Shown here: in pieces, positions 32,303 to 38,777 of the stretch
How positions within the stretch are numbered: position 1 is the first letter of the stretch
Layout of the letters: each line of letters starts with the position of its first letter
Assembly (NCBI GenBank): GCA_024102795.1
Contig: JAGFJK010000075.1
Span: 1 to 64,000 of the forward strand
Source: Pirellulaceae bacterium
Lineage (GTDB): Bacteria; Planctomycetota; Planctomycetia; Pirellulales; Pirellulaceae
Length of the DNA stretch: 64,000 bases
Direction: 5' to 3'
Translations under genes and position numbers: made by a program
The notes under the pieces: generated by a model
The model's input: only the letters and a program-made list of their open reading frames with translations
Database searches by the model: none
Told to the model about the DNA's origin: nothing

Positions 32303-33685
32303 ATGAAACGCACAACTTCCCGCCGCGACCTGTTGAAACTTTCGGCCTTGGGACTGGGCGGACTGACACTCAGCGGTCTGCCTGCCGCGCTGGTGCGCGC
32401 CGCCGGCTCCGCGGCACCTCAGCAGCCGCATCATGCGCCGCGAGCACGACGAGTGATCTTTCTGTTCATGCACGGCGGACCGAGCCAGGTGGACCTGTTC
32501 GATTACAAGCCGAAACTGCAGGAGGACGACGGCAAGCAGTTGCCGTTCGAACCGGCCAAGAATATCAACGCCAAGCCCAAGCTGCTCAAGAGCCCCTGGA
32601 AGTTCGCCCAGCATGGCGAGTCCGGGCTGTGGGTCTCGGAGCTGTTGCCGCACATTGCCCGGCACGCGGACGACTTGTGCGTCATCCGCTCGATGCACAG
32701 CCGAGGCCAATCGCACGGCCAGGCCGTGTCGATGCTGCACACGGGCAGCGATAACCTGGTGCGGCCTTCGGTCGGCGCCTGGGTGTCGTTCGGACTGGGA
32801 ACCGACAACCCGGACCTGCCGGCGTTTGTCTCGATCAGCCCGGCCAGCGGCCACGGCGGTCCGCGCAACTACGGCAGCGCGTTTCTGCCGGCCATGCACC
32901 AGGCCACCACGATCGGCCACTCGGGCACGCTGGGCAACGCCCGCATCGACTACCTGGGTAACCCGCGGCTGGCCGCGGACGATCAGCGGCGGCAGATCGA
33001 GCTGCTGCAGGCGATGAACCGGGACCATCTGGAACGAACCGAGCGGGACGAACAGATCGAGGGGGCGATCGAGTCGGTGGATCTGGCTTATCGCATGCAG
33101 AACGCCGCTCCCGAAGTGCTGGACCTGCAGCGCGAGTCGAAGCAGGTTCACGAACTGTACGGCATCGGCCAGCCGAACACGGACAATTTCGGCCGCCAAT
33201 GCCTGCTGGCTCGCCGCCTGATCGAAAGCGGCGTGCGGTACGTCGAGGTGTCCACCGGCAACAAGTGGGACCAGCACGGGAATCTGAAATCGGGCCACGA
33301 AAAGAACGCCCTGCTGACCGACCAGCCAATCGCCGGACTGCTGGCCGACCTGAAGGCCCGCGGCATGCTCGAAGACACGCTGGTCGTCTGGGGCGGCGAA
33401 TTCGGCCGCACGCCGATCGCCCAGGGCGACAACGGCCGCGACCACAACCCGCAAGGCTTCACGATGTGGATGGCTGGCGGCGGTGCGAAGGCCGGGTTTG
33501 CCTATGGCAACACGGACGAGTACGGATATTACGCCGTCGAGAACCGCGTGCACATGCACGACCTGCATGCCACGATGCTCTGGCTGCTGGGGCTGGACCA
33601 CGAACGATTGACGTACCGCTACGCCGGTCGCGATTTCCGGCTGACCGACGTCTATGGCTCCGTGGTCCACGACCTGATGGCCTGA
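32303..33685 (+). CDS. DUF1501 family exported protein
   Basis: 460 residues with a twin-arginine-like leader ([20 protein letters not shown]). The body matches DUF1501: [55 protein letters not shown] and [20 protein letters not shown] (in part). The fold is related to sulfatases and phosphatases (HGGPSQVD and the GRDH segment hold candidate metal ligands), but there is no formylglycine motif. It is always found beside PSD1/DUF1549 genes, here 4 bases downstream, so the two products probably act together in the periplasm. The biochemical role is unknown. Confidence 0.92.
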
Positions 33686-34453: not shown

Positions 34454-35215
34454 CTACGTCGCGGGCGATCCGTCGCTGTTCACTTTCGCCTGCAGCACCA
34501 GGTGCTCTCGTTTCAGCGCCCGGGCGTCGCGCAGCCAGAGCGCGGCGAACAGGACGGCCAGCAGCAGCGCGGCCCACTGGTATCCGGTCAGGCCCCACAG
34601 CAGCCGAGCTTCGGGCCGGATAAACTCCGTGGCGAAGCGGTATGCCAGGTAGCTCAGCAGATAGAGTTTGATCAACTGCCCGCGAAACCAGCCGCCGCGC
34701 GCGAGCCCAACCAGGACCAGCGCCGCGGCGGCGTGAAACGCGGCTTCGTACAACTGCGTGGGATGGCGAGCGGCCAGCGGGTCGTCGGCGGCCGTGGGAA
34801 ACGCCACGCCCCACGGCAGCGATGTGGGTGTGCCGTAACAGCAGCCGGCCTGGAAGCAGGCCAGCCGCCCGATCGCCACCGCCACGGCGACCGGTACCGC
34901 GAATGTGTCGCCCGTGCGGACGCGAATGTCCAGCGCCCACTTGGCCAGTTCGACGCCGAAGTAGCCGCCCACGATACCGCACATGATCGTCTTGCCGTGC
35001 GAAAGCCAGGCGGCACCGCTGAGCAGGCCTTCCCAGTCCGACAGGACAAACGGCAGCTTGGCTCCGATCATCGCGCCGCAGAACGCTCCCACCCCGATCC
35101 CCAGCTTCTGCCAGCCCGCCAGCGGCAGCGACCTTTGCGACCGCCGCAACAGCACGGTGCAGGTCGCCAGCGCGACGAGCATGGTCACGGTGTATGGCAG
35201 ATCAACGGCCGGCAT
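34454..35215 (-). CDS. Lgt-like (prolipoprotein diacylglyceryl transferase family) membrane protein
   Basis: 253 residues with about seven hydrophobic segments. Lgt landmarks are present but modified: SHGKTIMCGIVGG (His73, normally HGG), the signature GRLACFQAGCCYG (residues 116-128, where Lgt has GR..NF.N.E), HPTQLYEA (151-158) and RFATEFIRPE. The Asn of the signature is replaced by Cys, so this is a divergent subfamily and may not make lipoproteins. The start is the ATG at 35215, which overlaps the radical SAM gene by 14 bases; the longer frame to 35284 adds an Arg-rich antisense-like tail. It likely moves or modifies a glycerolipid group together with the upstream radical SAM enzyme (inference). 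Confidence 0.78.
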   Translation of the reverse strand: MPAVDLPYTVTMLVALATCTVLLRRSQRSLPLAGWQKLGIGVGAFCGAMIGAKLPFVLSDWEGLLSGAAWLSHGKTIMCGIVGGYFGVELAKWALDIRVRTGDTFAVPVAVAVAIGRLACFQAGCCYGTPTSLPWGVAFPTAADDPLAARHPTQLYEAAFHAAAALVLVGLARGGWFRGQLIKLYLLSYLAYRFATEFIRPEARLLWGLTGYQWAALLLAVLFAALWLRDARALKREHLVLQAKVNSDGSPAT

Positions 35216-36701
35216 GTTCGCTCGCCGCTTTCCGCAGCGCCGGCAACGCCACGTGGCCCGGGCGGTACAGCGTGTTATAGGCACAGAAGGGAATCACGTG
35301 CCCGCTGGGCAGCACGTGATGCGTACAGCACTTCATCAGCCGCCGCACGTCGAAGTTGTAGGCGTCCAGGAACGAGGTGATCGTCAGCCGGAACAGGTCG
35401 GTGGCGCCCAGTTGTTCGGCCAGCACACCGGCGAAGAACTGCGAGCCGTCCGCCGCCGCTTCACGTTCCGCTTTCGCGTCTCTTTCCACCTCCGGCCCAC
35501 ACACTGCCTCCGCGCCGCTCACGATCTGCAGGCCGCCCACTGTCTCCGGGCCACACTGGCCGCCGCAGCAGGCCTGGCGGCTGAGATACTGCGCGATCAA
35601 CCGGCGGGCCTGGCCGCGAGTGAAACAGATGCCGTTGGCCAGCAGGTCGAAGTTCTGGCGAGCGTCGATGAAGCGGTTCAGCGGCACGACCGTGCCGCCG
35701 GTTCGCCAGGCCAACGCGATGCTGTGGCAGTTGGGATGAGCGCACGGCAGCGGCAGGAAATCATCCGGCTGGAACAGCCCGGCGGTTTGCCGAGCGATCC
35801 CCTGGATGACGTCGGGAAACGTGATCCGCCGCTCCAACTGCTGCGGCAGGTAGTAGCGGCCCGAATAGGTCGCCGGCTGGAAGTTCATGCCCGTGATCCA
35901 CGGCCGCTCGACGGCCAGTTGCACCAGCGGTCCCAGTTGGTCGTCGTTCACGCCGCCCTGCAAGGTGACGGCCAGCGTGACGTGCAGGTCGGCCTGGCCG
36001 AGCAGTTCCAGGGCGCGGAGCTTGGTCTCCAGCAACCGCTCGCCGCGCAGTTGCAGCGACACGTCGTCGTTCAATCCATCCAGTTGAAAGTAGATCTCCA
36101 GCCGCTGGCGATGGCGGGCCAGCGACTCGACCAGCGCCGGGTCGTGGGCCAGGCGGATGCCGTTGGTATTGATCTGGACGTAGTCGATCGGCTGCGCCAG
36201 GGCGTACTCCAGCACCTCGCTGAATTGCGGGTGAATCGTCGGCTCGCCGCCCGACAACTGCAGCACTTCCGGCCGCCCCTCGACCGCCACCAGCCGGTCG
36301 ATCGCCCGCCGGCAGTCGTCCAGCGAAACGTGCTGGCCGCCGGGCGAACTGGCGGCGTAGCACAGCGGGCAGGTCAGGTTGCAGGACGACGTCAGCTCGA
36401 CCAGCCCGATGCAGGTGTGCTGTTCGTGCTCGGTGCACAATCCGCAGTCGAACGGGCAGCCGCGATCCGGGTCGATGCCGTGTTCGACGGGCTCCTTGGC
36501 CGGCACCGCGTACTCGTTCCGGTCGTAGTACGCCACGTCCGAACAGACAAAATCTTCCCGTTCGCCGTGTTCCGGGCACCGCTTGCGAAAGTACACTCGG
36601 CCGCCGCGGCTGATGATCTTCGCCGGCACCAGCCGATGGCAGTCGGGACAGAGGCTCTGCGTGGTGCCCAGGAAACTGTAGTCGCGAAGCTGCATGGTCA
36701 T
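35202..36701 (-). CDS. Radical SAM enzyme of the Tes / MJ0619 type
   Basis: 499 residues. The radical SAM cluster motif is CNLTCPLC (Cys107, 111, 114). The N-terminal Cys-rich zone is diagnostic: SLCPDC (18, 21), RCPEHGE (42), GCPFDCGLC (82, 86, 89) and HTC (97), preceded by the family's 'VYFRKRCPEHGEREDFVCSD'. This zone matches archaeal MJ0619-like proteins, one clade of which is the tetraether lipid synthase Tes. More cysteines near the C-terminus (PCAHPNC, ACCGGQC, KCCTHHVLPSGHVIPFC) could hold auxiliary clusters. It starts at the ATG at 36701, overlapping the previous gene's stop as ATGA. The substrate is unknown; a lipid or cofactor C-C bond or methylation reaction is possible. Confidence 0.85.
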   Translation of the reverse strand: MTMQLRDYSFLGTTQSLCPDCHRLVPAKIISRGGRVYFRKRCPEHGEREDFVCSDVAYYDRNEYAVPAKEPVEHGIDPDRGCPFDCGLCTEHEQHTCIGLVELTSSCNLTCPLCYAASSPGGQHVSLDDCRRAIDRLVAVEGRPEVLQLSGGEPTIHPQFSEVLEYALAQPIDYVQINTNGIRLAHDPALVESLARHRQRLEIYFQLDGLNDDVSLQLRGERLLETKLRALELLGQADLHVTLAVTLQGGVNDDQLGPLVQLAVERPWITGMNFQPATYSGRYYLPQQLERRITFPDVIQGIARQTAGLFQPDDFLPLPCAHPNCHSIALAWRTGGTVVPLNRFIDARQNFDLLANGICFTRGQARRLIAQYLSRQACCGGQCGPETVGGLQIVSGAEAVCGPEVERDAKAEREAAADGSQFFAGVLAEQLGATDLFRLTITSFLDAYNFDVRRLMKCCTHHVLPSGHVIPFCAYNTLYRPGHVALPALRKAASEHAGR

Positions 36702-37309
36702 TTCCCGCGCTTGTTGATCCAAGTTACGGCGACGACGATGGCGGCAAGAACTCCGCCGCAAAATGTGATACACAAGAGGAGTATCGAAGCGGGAACAGGA
36801 TCCCTGCTGGGACTCGCCATCTCCACAATTGCCAGGCAGGCAAAGAAGAGTGTGATCAGCAGCGCCACGCCGATCAGGACGACAAACCCCAGGCTGGCCA
36901 GGAACGTGGTCAGTTTCTCTCCCACCGACAACGGCTGCCCTTGCGCCTTGCGGCGCAACTGGACGACAACCGTGCGGACCAGCGCCGGTGTGGACAGCAC
37001 GGCCAGCAGGATACCCAGGCCAGGCACCCACACTCCGACGCTCAAGCAGACCGCCACCAGCGTGACGACCAGCATCAGGGATTCGAGGCTGAAGGTGCGA
37101 GCCGCTTCCGCGCGCATCGGCCAGGTGACTGCGGGCGGGTCGGCGTCGTTCCGCGGCGGAGGAGGCGCCCAGCCGCAACCCGGACAGGCCGCTTCGATCG
37201 CTTCCCGCCTGGCGCCGCACTGCGGGCAAGGATTGAAAGCGGTGCGCACCGGCGGCAGTGTTGGTTCAGGAATTGCAGACTCCTGTTCGCCCGCGGAATC
37301 GTCGTTCAT
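36698..37309 (-). CDS. Zinc-ribbon membrane protein
   Basis: 203 residues. The N-terminus has a zinc ribbon, CPQCG...CPGCG (Cys28, 31, 42, 45), in a Pro-rich cytosolic region. Two helical hairpins follow, giving about four membrane segments (LMLVVTLVAVCLSVGVWVPG, FLASLGFVVLIGVALLITLF, ASILLLCITFCGGVLAAIVV). It is a common planctomycete small membrane protein type without assigned function. It overlaps the radical SAM gene by 4 bases and is the first gene of this three-gene operon. It diverges from a sulfatase gene across a 64-base promoter region. Confidence 0.7.
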   Translation of the reverse strand: MNDDSAGEQESAIPEPTLPPVRTAFNPCPQCGARREAIEAACPGCGWAPPPPRNDADPPAVTWPMRAEAARTFSLESLMLVVTLVAVCLSVGVWVPGLGILLAVLSTPALVRTVVVQLRRKAQGQPLSVGEKLTTFLASLGFVVLIGVALLITLFFACLAIVEMASPSRDPVPASILLLCITFCGGVLAAIVVAVTWINKRGK

Positions 37310-37373
37310 GTTATAACGCCCTGGGGAACAACATCAAACAACAGAGTTTGCCACCTTGGTGAACGGTGAAACC

Positions 37374-38777
37374 ATGCAGCTTCGCACGACCATTGTAGCG
37401 GCAGTTGCGGCCTGTGCGCTCCTTCCGCTACCAGTGCGAGCGGCGCCTGCCCAGCAGCCCAACATGCTTGTGGTATTTATCGACGACCTGGGCTGGGGCG
37501 ACTTTTCCTGTTTCGGGAATCCAGATATTGCCACTCCGCACATCGACCGGCTGGCGCGCGAAGGGCTTCGTTTCGAGCAGTTTTACGTCAATTCGCCGAT
37601 CTGCTCGCCGTCGCGCGTGGCGATCTCCACGGGACAATACCCGCAGCGCTGGCGGATCACTTCGTACTTGAATAACCGGCAGAGCAATCTGGATCGGGGC
37701 ATGGCTCAGTGGCTCGACCCGCAGGCTCCCATGCTGGCCCGTTCGTTGCAACAGGCGGGTTACGCCACGGGACATTTTGGCAAGTGGCACCTGGGCGGGC
37801 AGCGCGACGTGGGCGACGCTCCGCTGATCACCGAGTACGGTTTCGACGCTTCGCTGACGAACTTCGAAGGGCTCGGTCCGCGCGTGCTGCCGCTGTGCGA
37901 CTCCCACGACGGGCAGCCTCCCCGCCGCCACGCCTTGGGGTCGGACCGCCTGGGCCGCGGCGCCATCACCTGGCAGGATCGATCGCAGGTAACGGCCGCG
38001 TTCGTGGCCGCGGCCCGCAAGTTCATCGAGCAGGCCGTTGCCGGCGGGCGGCCGTTTTACGTCAACCTCTGGCCCGACGACGTGCACGGGCCGTGGCATC
38101 CGCCGCGCGAGCGGCGAGGAGACGGCTCGCGGCGAGCGTTGTATCTGGGCGTGCTGCAAACGATGGACGAACAACTGGGCGAGCTGTTCGACTATATCCG
38201 TTCCGACCAGCGTCTGCGGGAGAACACGCTGATCCTGATCTGTTCCGACAACGGGCCGGAACCTGGAGCGGGCCAGGCCGGTCCGTTTCGAGGCCACAAG
38301 ACGATGCTGTACGAAGGCGGCATCCGCTCGCCGCTGGTCGTCTGGGCGCCTGGCATGATCGCGGCCGACAAGCGGGGCGGCGTCAATACGCAGTCGGTTC
38401 TGGCGGCGATCGACCTGGTCCCCAGCCTGCTGGAGTTGGCTGGCGCGCGTTTGCCAGACAATATCACGCTGGACGGCGTTCCGCTGCCCGACGTGCTGTT
38501 GGGCCGATCCACCGCCTCGCGCGGCCAGCCGCTGTTTTTCCGCCGGCCGCCAGACCGCGACCGATTCTATGGCGATGACGATTTGCCCGACCTGGCCGTG
38601 CGCGACGGCCGCTGGAAACTGCTTTGCGAATACGACGGCGCGGACATCCAGTTCTATGATCTGGTTGCTGACCGGGGAGAAACGACCAACCTGGCCAGCC
38701 AGCATCCCGATCGGGTCGGCCAATTGCGCGCCGCGCTGCTGAATTGGCATCAGTCGCTGCCCCCCGACGGTAAATAG
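37374..38777 (+). CDS. Secreted type I sulfatase
   Basis: 467 residues with the signal peptide MQLRTTIVAAVAACALLPLPVRA from the ATG at 37374; a GTG 18 bases upstream is a less likely start. The metal-site motif is MLVVFIDDLGWGD and the formylglycine motif is CSPSR in NSPICSPSRVAISTG. GHFGKWHLGG, the ICSDNGPEPG segment and a C-terminal DLVADRGETTNLA complete the family pattern. Substrate candidates are sulfated glycans. It is not closely similar to the sulfatase at 19.4 kb (different length and a CSPSR rather than CAPTR site), so the two probably have different targets. Confidence 0.93.
   Translation: MQLRTTIVAAVAACALLPLPVRAAPAQQPNMLVVFIDDLGWGDFSCFGNPDIATPHIDRLAREGLRFEQFYVNSPICSPSRVAISTGQYPQRWRITSYLNNRQSNLDRGMAQWLDPQAPMLARSLQQAGYATGHFGKWHLGGQRDVGDAPLITEYGFDASLTNFEGLGPRVLPLCDSHDGQPPRRHALGSDRLGRGAITWQDRSQVTAAFVAAARKFIEQAVAGGRPFYVNLWPDDVHGPWHPPRERRGDGSRRALYLGVLQTMDEQLGELFDYIRSDQRLRENTLILICSDNGPEPGAGQAGPFRGHKTMLYEGGIRSPLVVWAPGMIAADKRGGVNTQSVLAAIDLVPSLLELAGARLPDNITLDGVPLPDVLLGRSTASRGQPLFFRRPPDRDRFYGDDDLPDLAVRDGRWKLLCEYDGADIQFYDLVADRGETTNLASQHPDRVGQLRAALLNWHQSLPPDGK

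Follow-up and report, generated by a model that had tools for sequence, protein, structure and literature searches.

What is the task of a bacterial gene unit that couples a radical S-adenosylmethionine (SAM) enzyme of the Tes/TrsS superfamily to an Lgt-like protein and a small membrane protein? The question is raised by a 64,000-nucleotide stretch of contig JAGFJK010000075.1 from a Pirellulaceae bacterium (GenBank assembly GCA_024102795.1; the whole stretch is hereafter the window), in which three minus-strand genes form one unit, joined by a 4-base (ATGA) and then a 14-base overlap (Table 1). Pfam matches were Radical_SAM (E 4e-21) and the HMPTM zinc ribbon PF23545 (E 1e-20) for the radical SAM protein, and LGT (E 3e-29) for the Lgt-like protein. 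A sequence-only reading had described these genes and overlaps, which we re-derived at the same coordinates, and had quoted the motifs CPDC, CPEHGE, GCPFDCGLC, CNLTCPLC and CFQAGCCYG, every one of which is present. It had gone on to propose either a pathway for unusual membrane lipids or the modification of a lipid-anchored product. Of these two options the first has become weaker, while the second fits better because the product of the third gene is a conserved partner whose membrane-end cysteine is conserved too. We put forward, as a tentative reading somewhat short of probable, that the unit is a membrane protein lipidation system; this builds on the conservation of the unit, the cysteine, the catalytic arginines and the predicted enzyme folds.

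An Lgt-like gene is the recurrent neighbour of the radical SAM gene

Throughout, open reading frames (ORFs) were called by simple rules, and hydrophobicity was used as a proxy for membrane prediction. When the ORFs of 120 loci (80 fetched and 40 added) were clustered, one gene alone stood out as widely shared beside the radical SAM gene: the Lgt-like gene, present in 81 of these loci. Across 392 Planctomycetota genomes, the co-occurrence that the sequence-only reading had suggested counting amounted to 39 of 58 radical-SAM-bearing genomes with the two genes at most 4 kb apart, and the radical SAM gene adjoined the Lgt-like gene in 39 of the 50 genomes with a clear Lgt-like match; some of the unpaired cases are contig ends or paralogues from fatty-acid clusters (described below). 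The pair was also found outside Planctomycetota, on a Mycobacterium avium plasmid, in Nonomuraea (Actinomycetota) and in Persicobacter (Bacteroidota), as well as in one further phylum, probably Myxococcota (G392). The unit is spread over at least three bacterial phyla, and probably four. Cultured planctomycetes with the unit include Lacipirellula limnantheis I41 (L026) and Rhodopirellula baltica (L071). The earlier proposal had been staked on the two genes being neighbours in related genomes too, and they are, both within Planctomycetota and in other phyla.

The whole unit lies on the M. avium plasmid pS2b (L227:2222-5542), with two tandem proteins of the cysteine-bearing type treated in the next section, and a Mycobacterium branderi plasmid carries the same Lgt-like gene plus a radical SAM gene. 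The Persicobacter radical SAM protein (L225:4001-5395) groups with a planctomycete row (L120; 99 in the Shimodaira–Hasegawa-like approximate likelihood ratio test, SH-aLRT), which suggests gene transfer. A protein of 220 residues, predicted to have about five helices and matching no Pfam family, is often found one gene away from the unit in Pirellulaceae-type loci (L026:4737-5423, L002:4782-5450 and 26 other loci); it is absent from the window.

Most partner proteins have a cysteine where a predicted membrane helix ends

The third gene product of the window has an N-terminal CxxC...CxxC ribbon (C28, C31, C42, C45) followed by about four predicted transmembrane helices, and matched no family in Pfam. 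This ribbon-headed protein has no N-terminal signal peptide with a lipobox; its Cys158 ends the third predicted helix, is preceded by FFA, and aligned with the equivalent cysteine of the nearest partner proteins. At pair loci generally, the partners are small (mostly 58-240 residues) and barely alignable with one another. Their heads vary between CxxC ribbons, an NPY-type head and little beyond two helices, their weak Pfam matches are to generic zinc ribbons only, and their common trait is the cysteine at the helix end (hereafter transmembrane-end cysteine, TM-Cys).

To put a number on this trait, 95 non-redundant pair loci were used, of which 82 have a membrane neighbour; membrane ORFs lying farther away in the same loci served as controls. 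A cysteine following at least 12 apolar residues occurred in 78/82 membrane neighbours versus 21/63 controls (Fisher 3e-16), and the enrichment persisted when loci devoid of a membrane neighbour were counted as negative (Fisher 6e-10). Under a stricter cysteine motif, 60/90 Lgt-linked loci scored, versus 0/6 loci linked to a TrsM methyltransferase gene and 0/23 fatty-acid-cluster loci; under a looser one, a few fatty-acid-cluster rows also score. The stricter motif was present in a further 10/27 loci with no Lgt-like gene nearby. These belong to the window's clade, and in them the Lgt-like gene may lie elsewhere, as in L017, where it is 3.5 kb away. Far from the planctomycetes, the Mycobacterium unit encodes two TM-Cys proteins (endings SAGYCTGLNP.. 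and TAGICTGLNP..) and that of Nonomuraea one, ending SAGICTGINPSLYG; the Actinomycetota partner ending is ..SAGICTG.., and the Persicobacter partner, of just 58 residues, ends in GTGICGSLLS. We rejected the notion that the third gene is spurious or merely a local neighbour, as it recurs along with its cysteine.

Two forms of partner can be told apart. In 42 loci the cysteine stands 3-20 residues from the C-terminus, and in 36, the window included, it is followed by one more helix. The two-helix form has Phe at -4 in 27/40 cases and Gly at +2 in 22/40. In the short-tail form a net positive charge precedes the helix in 38/47 cases, and the cysteine end is therefore predicted to be periplasmic.

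The short tails bring to mind a lipopeptide route resembling that of the DAG-RiPPs (hybrids of lipoproteins with ribosomally synthesised and post-translationally modified peptides, RiPPs), in which the cysteine would be lipidated, signal peptidase II would cut before it, and the resulting diacylglyceryl-cysteinyl peptide of 4-20 residues would be tailored by the radical SAM enzyme. RiPPs elsewhere do co-opt lipoprotein enzymes (PMC12636315), and the 42 short-tail loci, roughly half of the partners, would suit such a cut. Roughly the other half, however, continue into a further helix past the cysteine, the tails are not conserved, and among protein families the radical SAM protein comes closest to TrsS and Tes rather than to RiPP maturases, all of which makes this route very improbable.

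The Lgt-like protein retains the catalytic arginines

The Lgt-like protein scored 102.4 bits against Pfam LGT (PF01790), exceeding the gathering score of 24.9, and missed the NCBIfam Lgt equivalog cut-offs (90.5 versus 334 and 46.7 versus 118.9 bits); a stronger second Lgt is found elsewhere in the genome (187 bits versus 103). Both Arg143 and Arg239 are essential in the E. coli enzyme. Their counterparts, R117 and R193 in the window protein, are invariant in 93/93 Lgt-like sequences, and in the same 93 the other E. coli positions shared with Lgt are largely kept as well: Asp129 in 92, Tyr235 in 93, Glu202 in 91 and Glu243 in 80 (Asp in 11). The shared fold is borne out by a structural model (predicted local distance difference test score, pLDDT, 92.3), which aligned with E. 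coli Lgt (PDB 5AZB) at VIA Z 13.0 over 234 residues, the next row scoring 7.2. Matches of the model to receptors and rhodopsins (VIA Z below 8) were put down to common helix packing. Unlike Lgt proper, the protein is a paralogue alongside a housekeeping enzyme, has lost His103, falls below the NCBIfam cut-offs and is linked to a radical SAM gene; Planctomycetota members of the group also show a family-specific GKT, Glu89 and Lys92, the latter two invariant across them.

One line of argument from the sequence-only reading had to be given up. It had drawn attention to CFQAGCCYG as replacing the catalytic Asn motif, and E. coli Asn146 is indeed Cys in all Lgt-like sequences aligned. The genome's own housekeeping Lgt (L151), however, carries GRLGCLLNGCCWG, with the same Cys and GCC. 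The CxxxGCC motif is therefore not diagnostic, and we rejected it as a sign of altered Lgt chemistry.

The radical SAM protein has a Tes fold and lies outside the Tes branch

In NCBIfam, the best match of the radical SAM protein was TrsS (NF045646; 333.6 bits, below the cut-off of 490) and the second was Tes (NF045702; 287.2 bits, below the cut-off of 450); the TrsS cut-off was reached in none of the genomes searched. The sole close solved structure is Tes, also known as GDGT-MAS or MJ0619 (7TOL; E 2e-71, improving to 7e-97 when a family profile was used). For an AlphaFold2 model based on 36 relatives (pLDDT 83.7), the match to Tes 7TOM spanned the whole length (VIA Z 45.1, root-mean-square deviation 3.6, 424 residues; Foldseek E 5.5e-39). 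Metal ligands of Tes are kept in 18/18 members of the window's clade, namely the C-C-C-H of the rubredoxin-like site, the C-C-C-H of the N-terminal cluster and CX3CX2C, and the SAM-contact residues Gln268 and Arg275 are retained. Differences from Tes comprise an identity of about 30%, an extra CC-G-C linker, and the Lgt-like and TM-Cys neighbours of the window's unit.

Two residues of Tes are lost. Met439 is Thr in 18/18 of the window's clade; in place of Tyr459 the clade has His, Phe or Asn, with His in the window protein (numbering from PMC9433317). Both are reported to be invariant among 1,000 archaeal Tes homologues; the M439A variant of Tes, however, retains activity in vitro (PMC9433317), so that Tes chemistry would be compatible with the change at Met439 taken by itself. 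In a 97-row tree, which contained one archaeal Tes row, the window protein grouped with Lgt-linked planctomycete proteins, and a branch with an SH-aLRT of 99 separated Tes and its bacterial neighbours from them. The description "Tes/MJ0619-like" given in the sequence-only reading thus stands as regards fold and metal sites. It does not extend to a direct reading as Tes: the score is 287 versus 450 bits, the tree that the same reading had proposed places the protein on a separate branch, and Met439 and Tyr459 are absent. On the same grounds we rejected orthology with Tes.

As to TrsS, it is the best family match, and TrsS is listed as a selenoprotein with no function stated (PMC13188914). Taking TrsM (NF045667, a DVU_1556-type methyltransferase) as a defining partner of TrsS is our inference. 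No TrsM neighbour is found in the window or in Lgt-linked loci, and conversely the TrsM-linked relatives have neither an Lgt-like gene nor a TM-Cys partner.

In one planctomycete (G115; L078/L111/L091), the CC..C linker has an in-frame TGA in place of its third Cys (CCAPGES-TGA-G), where the sister L112 has ESCG; it is probably a selenocysteine codon, because the genome has SelB above cut-off. In-frame TGAs of L084 and L085 were rejected as selenocysteine, being stop codons where the match ends. A scan of viral contigs with the radical SAM protein led nowhere.

The Tes fold with its metal sites is what would favour a pathway for free membrane lipids, in which the radical SAM enzyme joins or modifies phospholipid acyl chains, the Lgt-like protein moves glyceryl or diacylglyceryl groups between lipids, and the small protein is a chaperone or an anchor. 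E. coli phospholipids were found bound in the Tes active site (PMC9433317), and bacterial Tes homologues have been proposed as enzymes for branched glycerol dialkyl glycerol tetraethers (PMC8941075, PMC11868695). Such a pathway nevertheless leaves unexplained why a membrane-end cysteine is retained in otherwise unrelated small proteins; moreover, the acceptors of known Lgt enzymes are protein thiols, and the radical SAM protein has the branch position and the residue losses described above. We consider a free-lipid pathway rather unlikely.

A possible lipidation route and the evidence weighing against it

If the unit is a protein lipidation system, as we tentatively propose, the Lgt-like enzyme, with a periplasmic active site like that of E. 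coli Lgt, would first use a phospholipid as donor and attach its diacylglyceryl-type group to a thiol, that of the conserved cysteine with which the partner's helix ends on the outer side (Cys158 in the window). This acceptor would resemble a lipobox cysteine moved from its usual place after an N-terminal signal peptide to an internal or near-C-terminal position. Lipidation of the cysteine is the simplest account because an Lgt fold with intact arginines and a cysteine predicted at the outer face of a dedicated partner are frequently linked. In a second step, which we hold with less assurance, the radical SAM enzyme, a soluble Tes-like protein with three predicted iron–sulfur (FeS) sites and a rubredoxin-like site, may take a hydrogen from an alkyl chain and make a bond of an unusual kind, such as C-C or C-S. 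We tentatively place its action on the donor or the attached lipid because its architecture is that of an enzyme acting on alkyl chains, although it may instead act on free lipids or on the partner protein. A more specific version, that a dedicated Lgt paralogue lipidates a helix-end cysteine devoid of signal peptide or lipobox and that the Tes-like enzyme subsequently links the attached chain to the protein or to a further lipid, yielding a covalent protein-lipid structure that possibly spans the membrane, strikes us as unlikely.

Several observations weigh against the lipidation reading. The radical SAM protein is cytosolic by its sequence, and the cysteine is predicted at the opposite face of the membrane. 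No membrane neighbour at all was found in 13/95 pair loci, and 11 Lgt-linked rows have no TM-Cys neighbour under the ORF rules used. The positive-inside signal is weaker in the two-helix form (22/40), to which the window partner belongs. After correction for phylogeny, the association between Lgt and TM-Cys came down to 7 independent pairs (on average 3.7 agreeing, 0.1 disagreeing and 3.2 tied), with a median p of 0.125. E. coli His103 is lost in the Lgt-like group, a residue that is also absent from the genome's housekeeping Lgt. Finally, the membrane-end cysteine could serve otherwise, as a metal ligand or in a disulfide.

In another explanation the cysteine is itself the substrate of the radical SAM enzyme or part of an Fe-S/thiol relay; the unit would then mature a redox protein of the membrane, with the Lgt-like protein only placing or anchoring it. 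Many partners have zinc-ribbon heads, the related TrsS/TrsM units adjoin thiol-redox genes, and small proteins encoded next door are frequent targets of radical SAM enzymes. Even so, a single cysteine is constant among the partners, predicted to be periplasmic while the radical SAM protein is cytosolic, and the catalytic residues of the Lgt-like protein are intact; redox maturation therefore appears improbable to us.

Relatives in other gene settings and significance

Tes-like radical SAM genes of a different kind, often two or three in a row, lie in fatty-acid clusters of Planctomycetota (L140-L146) and of probable Myxococcota (L192, L194, L195, L198). These clusters contain genes for ketoacyl synthase, short-chain dehydrogenase/enoyl reductase, nitroreductase and other radical SAM proteins, with no Lgt-like gene, and their radical SAM proteins form a clade of their own (SH-aLRT 99 for 25 rows). 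They look like a lipid or polyketide pathway, and are perhaps better candidates for making unusual membrane lipids. On plasmids of Mycolicibacterium, Salinirubellus and Haloarcula (L226, L228, L229), a TrsS-like radical SAM gene overlaps or touches the gene for a TrsM methyltransferase, and these loci lie near DUF547, peroxiredoxin or CcdA/thiol-disulfide genes.

Among known systems, the proposed lipidation unit resembles the DAG-RiPPs in combining a metalloenzyme with Lgt-type lipidation of a ribosomal product (PMC12636315). It differs in that DAG-RiPPs use the ordinary lipoprotein pathway, an N-terminal signal peptide and an MNIO enzyme, whereas the window's unit combines a Tes-like enzyme with a cysteine at a membrane end and an Lgt paralogue of its own. 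A literature search for a unit of Lgt and radical SAM genes found no description, in a coverage that left out most subscription papers.

Bacterial homologues of Tes have been reported and proposed to make membrane-spanning lipids, an activity that is proposed only; hundreds of them are counted as possible makers of such lipids (PMC8941075, PMC11868695), with consequences for palaeoclimate proxies. Their partner genes split these homologues into Lgt-linked, TrsM-linked and fatty-acid-cluster types, of which the Lgt-linked type may serve a protein cysteine. If true, this would be a protein lipidation route that signal-peptide predictors would miss, and the proposal is testable because it narrows to one residue and three genes.

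Layout of the unit in the window

Coordinates of the three genes and their features are collected in Table 1. The ATGA overlap consists of the ATG of the radical SAM gene and the TGA of the upstream partner gene. The second overlap is that of the Lgt-like gene with the stop codon of the radical SAM gene; a longer reading of the Lgt-like gene from a GTG start at 35284 exists.

Table 1 Features of the three-gene unit, in window positions
Feature	Position	Strand	Remarks
Small membrane partner protein with ribbon head	36698..37309	-	203 aa; proposed lipid-acceptor protein
Cys158 codon, end of third helix (LLITLFFAC-LAIVE)	36836..36838	-	Aligns with the F-x-x-C-x-G cysteine of partners at other loci
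Radical SAM protein, Tes/TrsS superfamily	35202..36701	-	499 aa
N-terminal rubredoxin/zinc-ribbon domain of radical SAM protein	36540..36674	-	PF23545, residues 10-54; ligand positions kept
CX3CX2C motif of radical SAM cluster	36360..36383	-	C107, C111, C114
C-terminal cluster domain of radical SAM protein (TITSFLDAYNF...MKCCTHH...FCAYNTLYR)	35262..35396	-	Tes Met439 = Thr442, Tes Tyr459 = His462
Lgt-like membrane protein	34454..35215 (from ATG)	-	253 aa; second Lgt paralogue of the genome
GRLACFQAGCCYG signature of Lgt-like protein	34832..34870	-	R117 = E. coli R143; C120 = E. coli N146
Gap before divergent sulfatase gene	37310..37355		Presumed promoter region of the three-gene unit, judged by gene positions only

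The unit is flanked in the window by genes for a DUF1501 protein and a sulfatase (32303-33685 and 37356-38777, +), both of which are common planctomycete genes.

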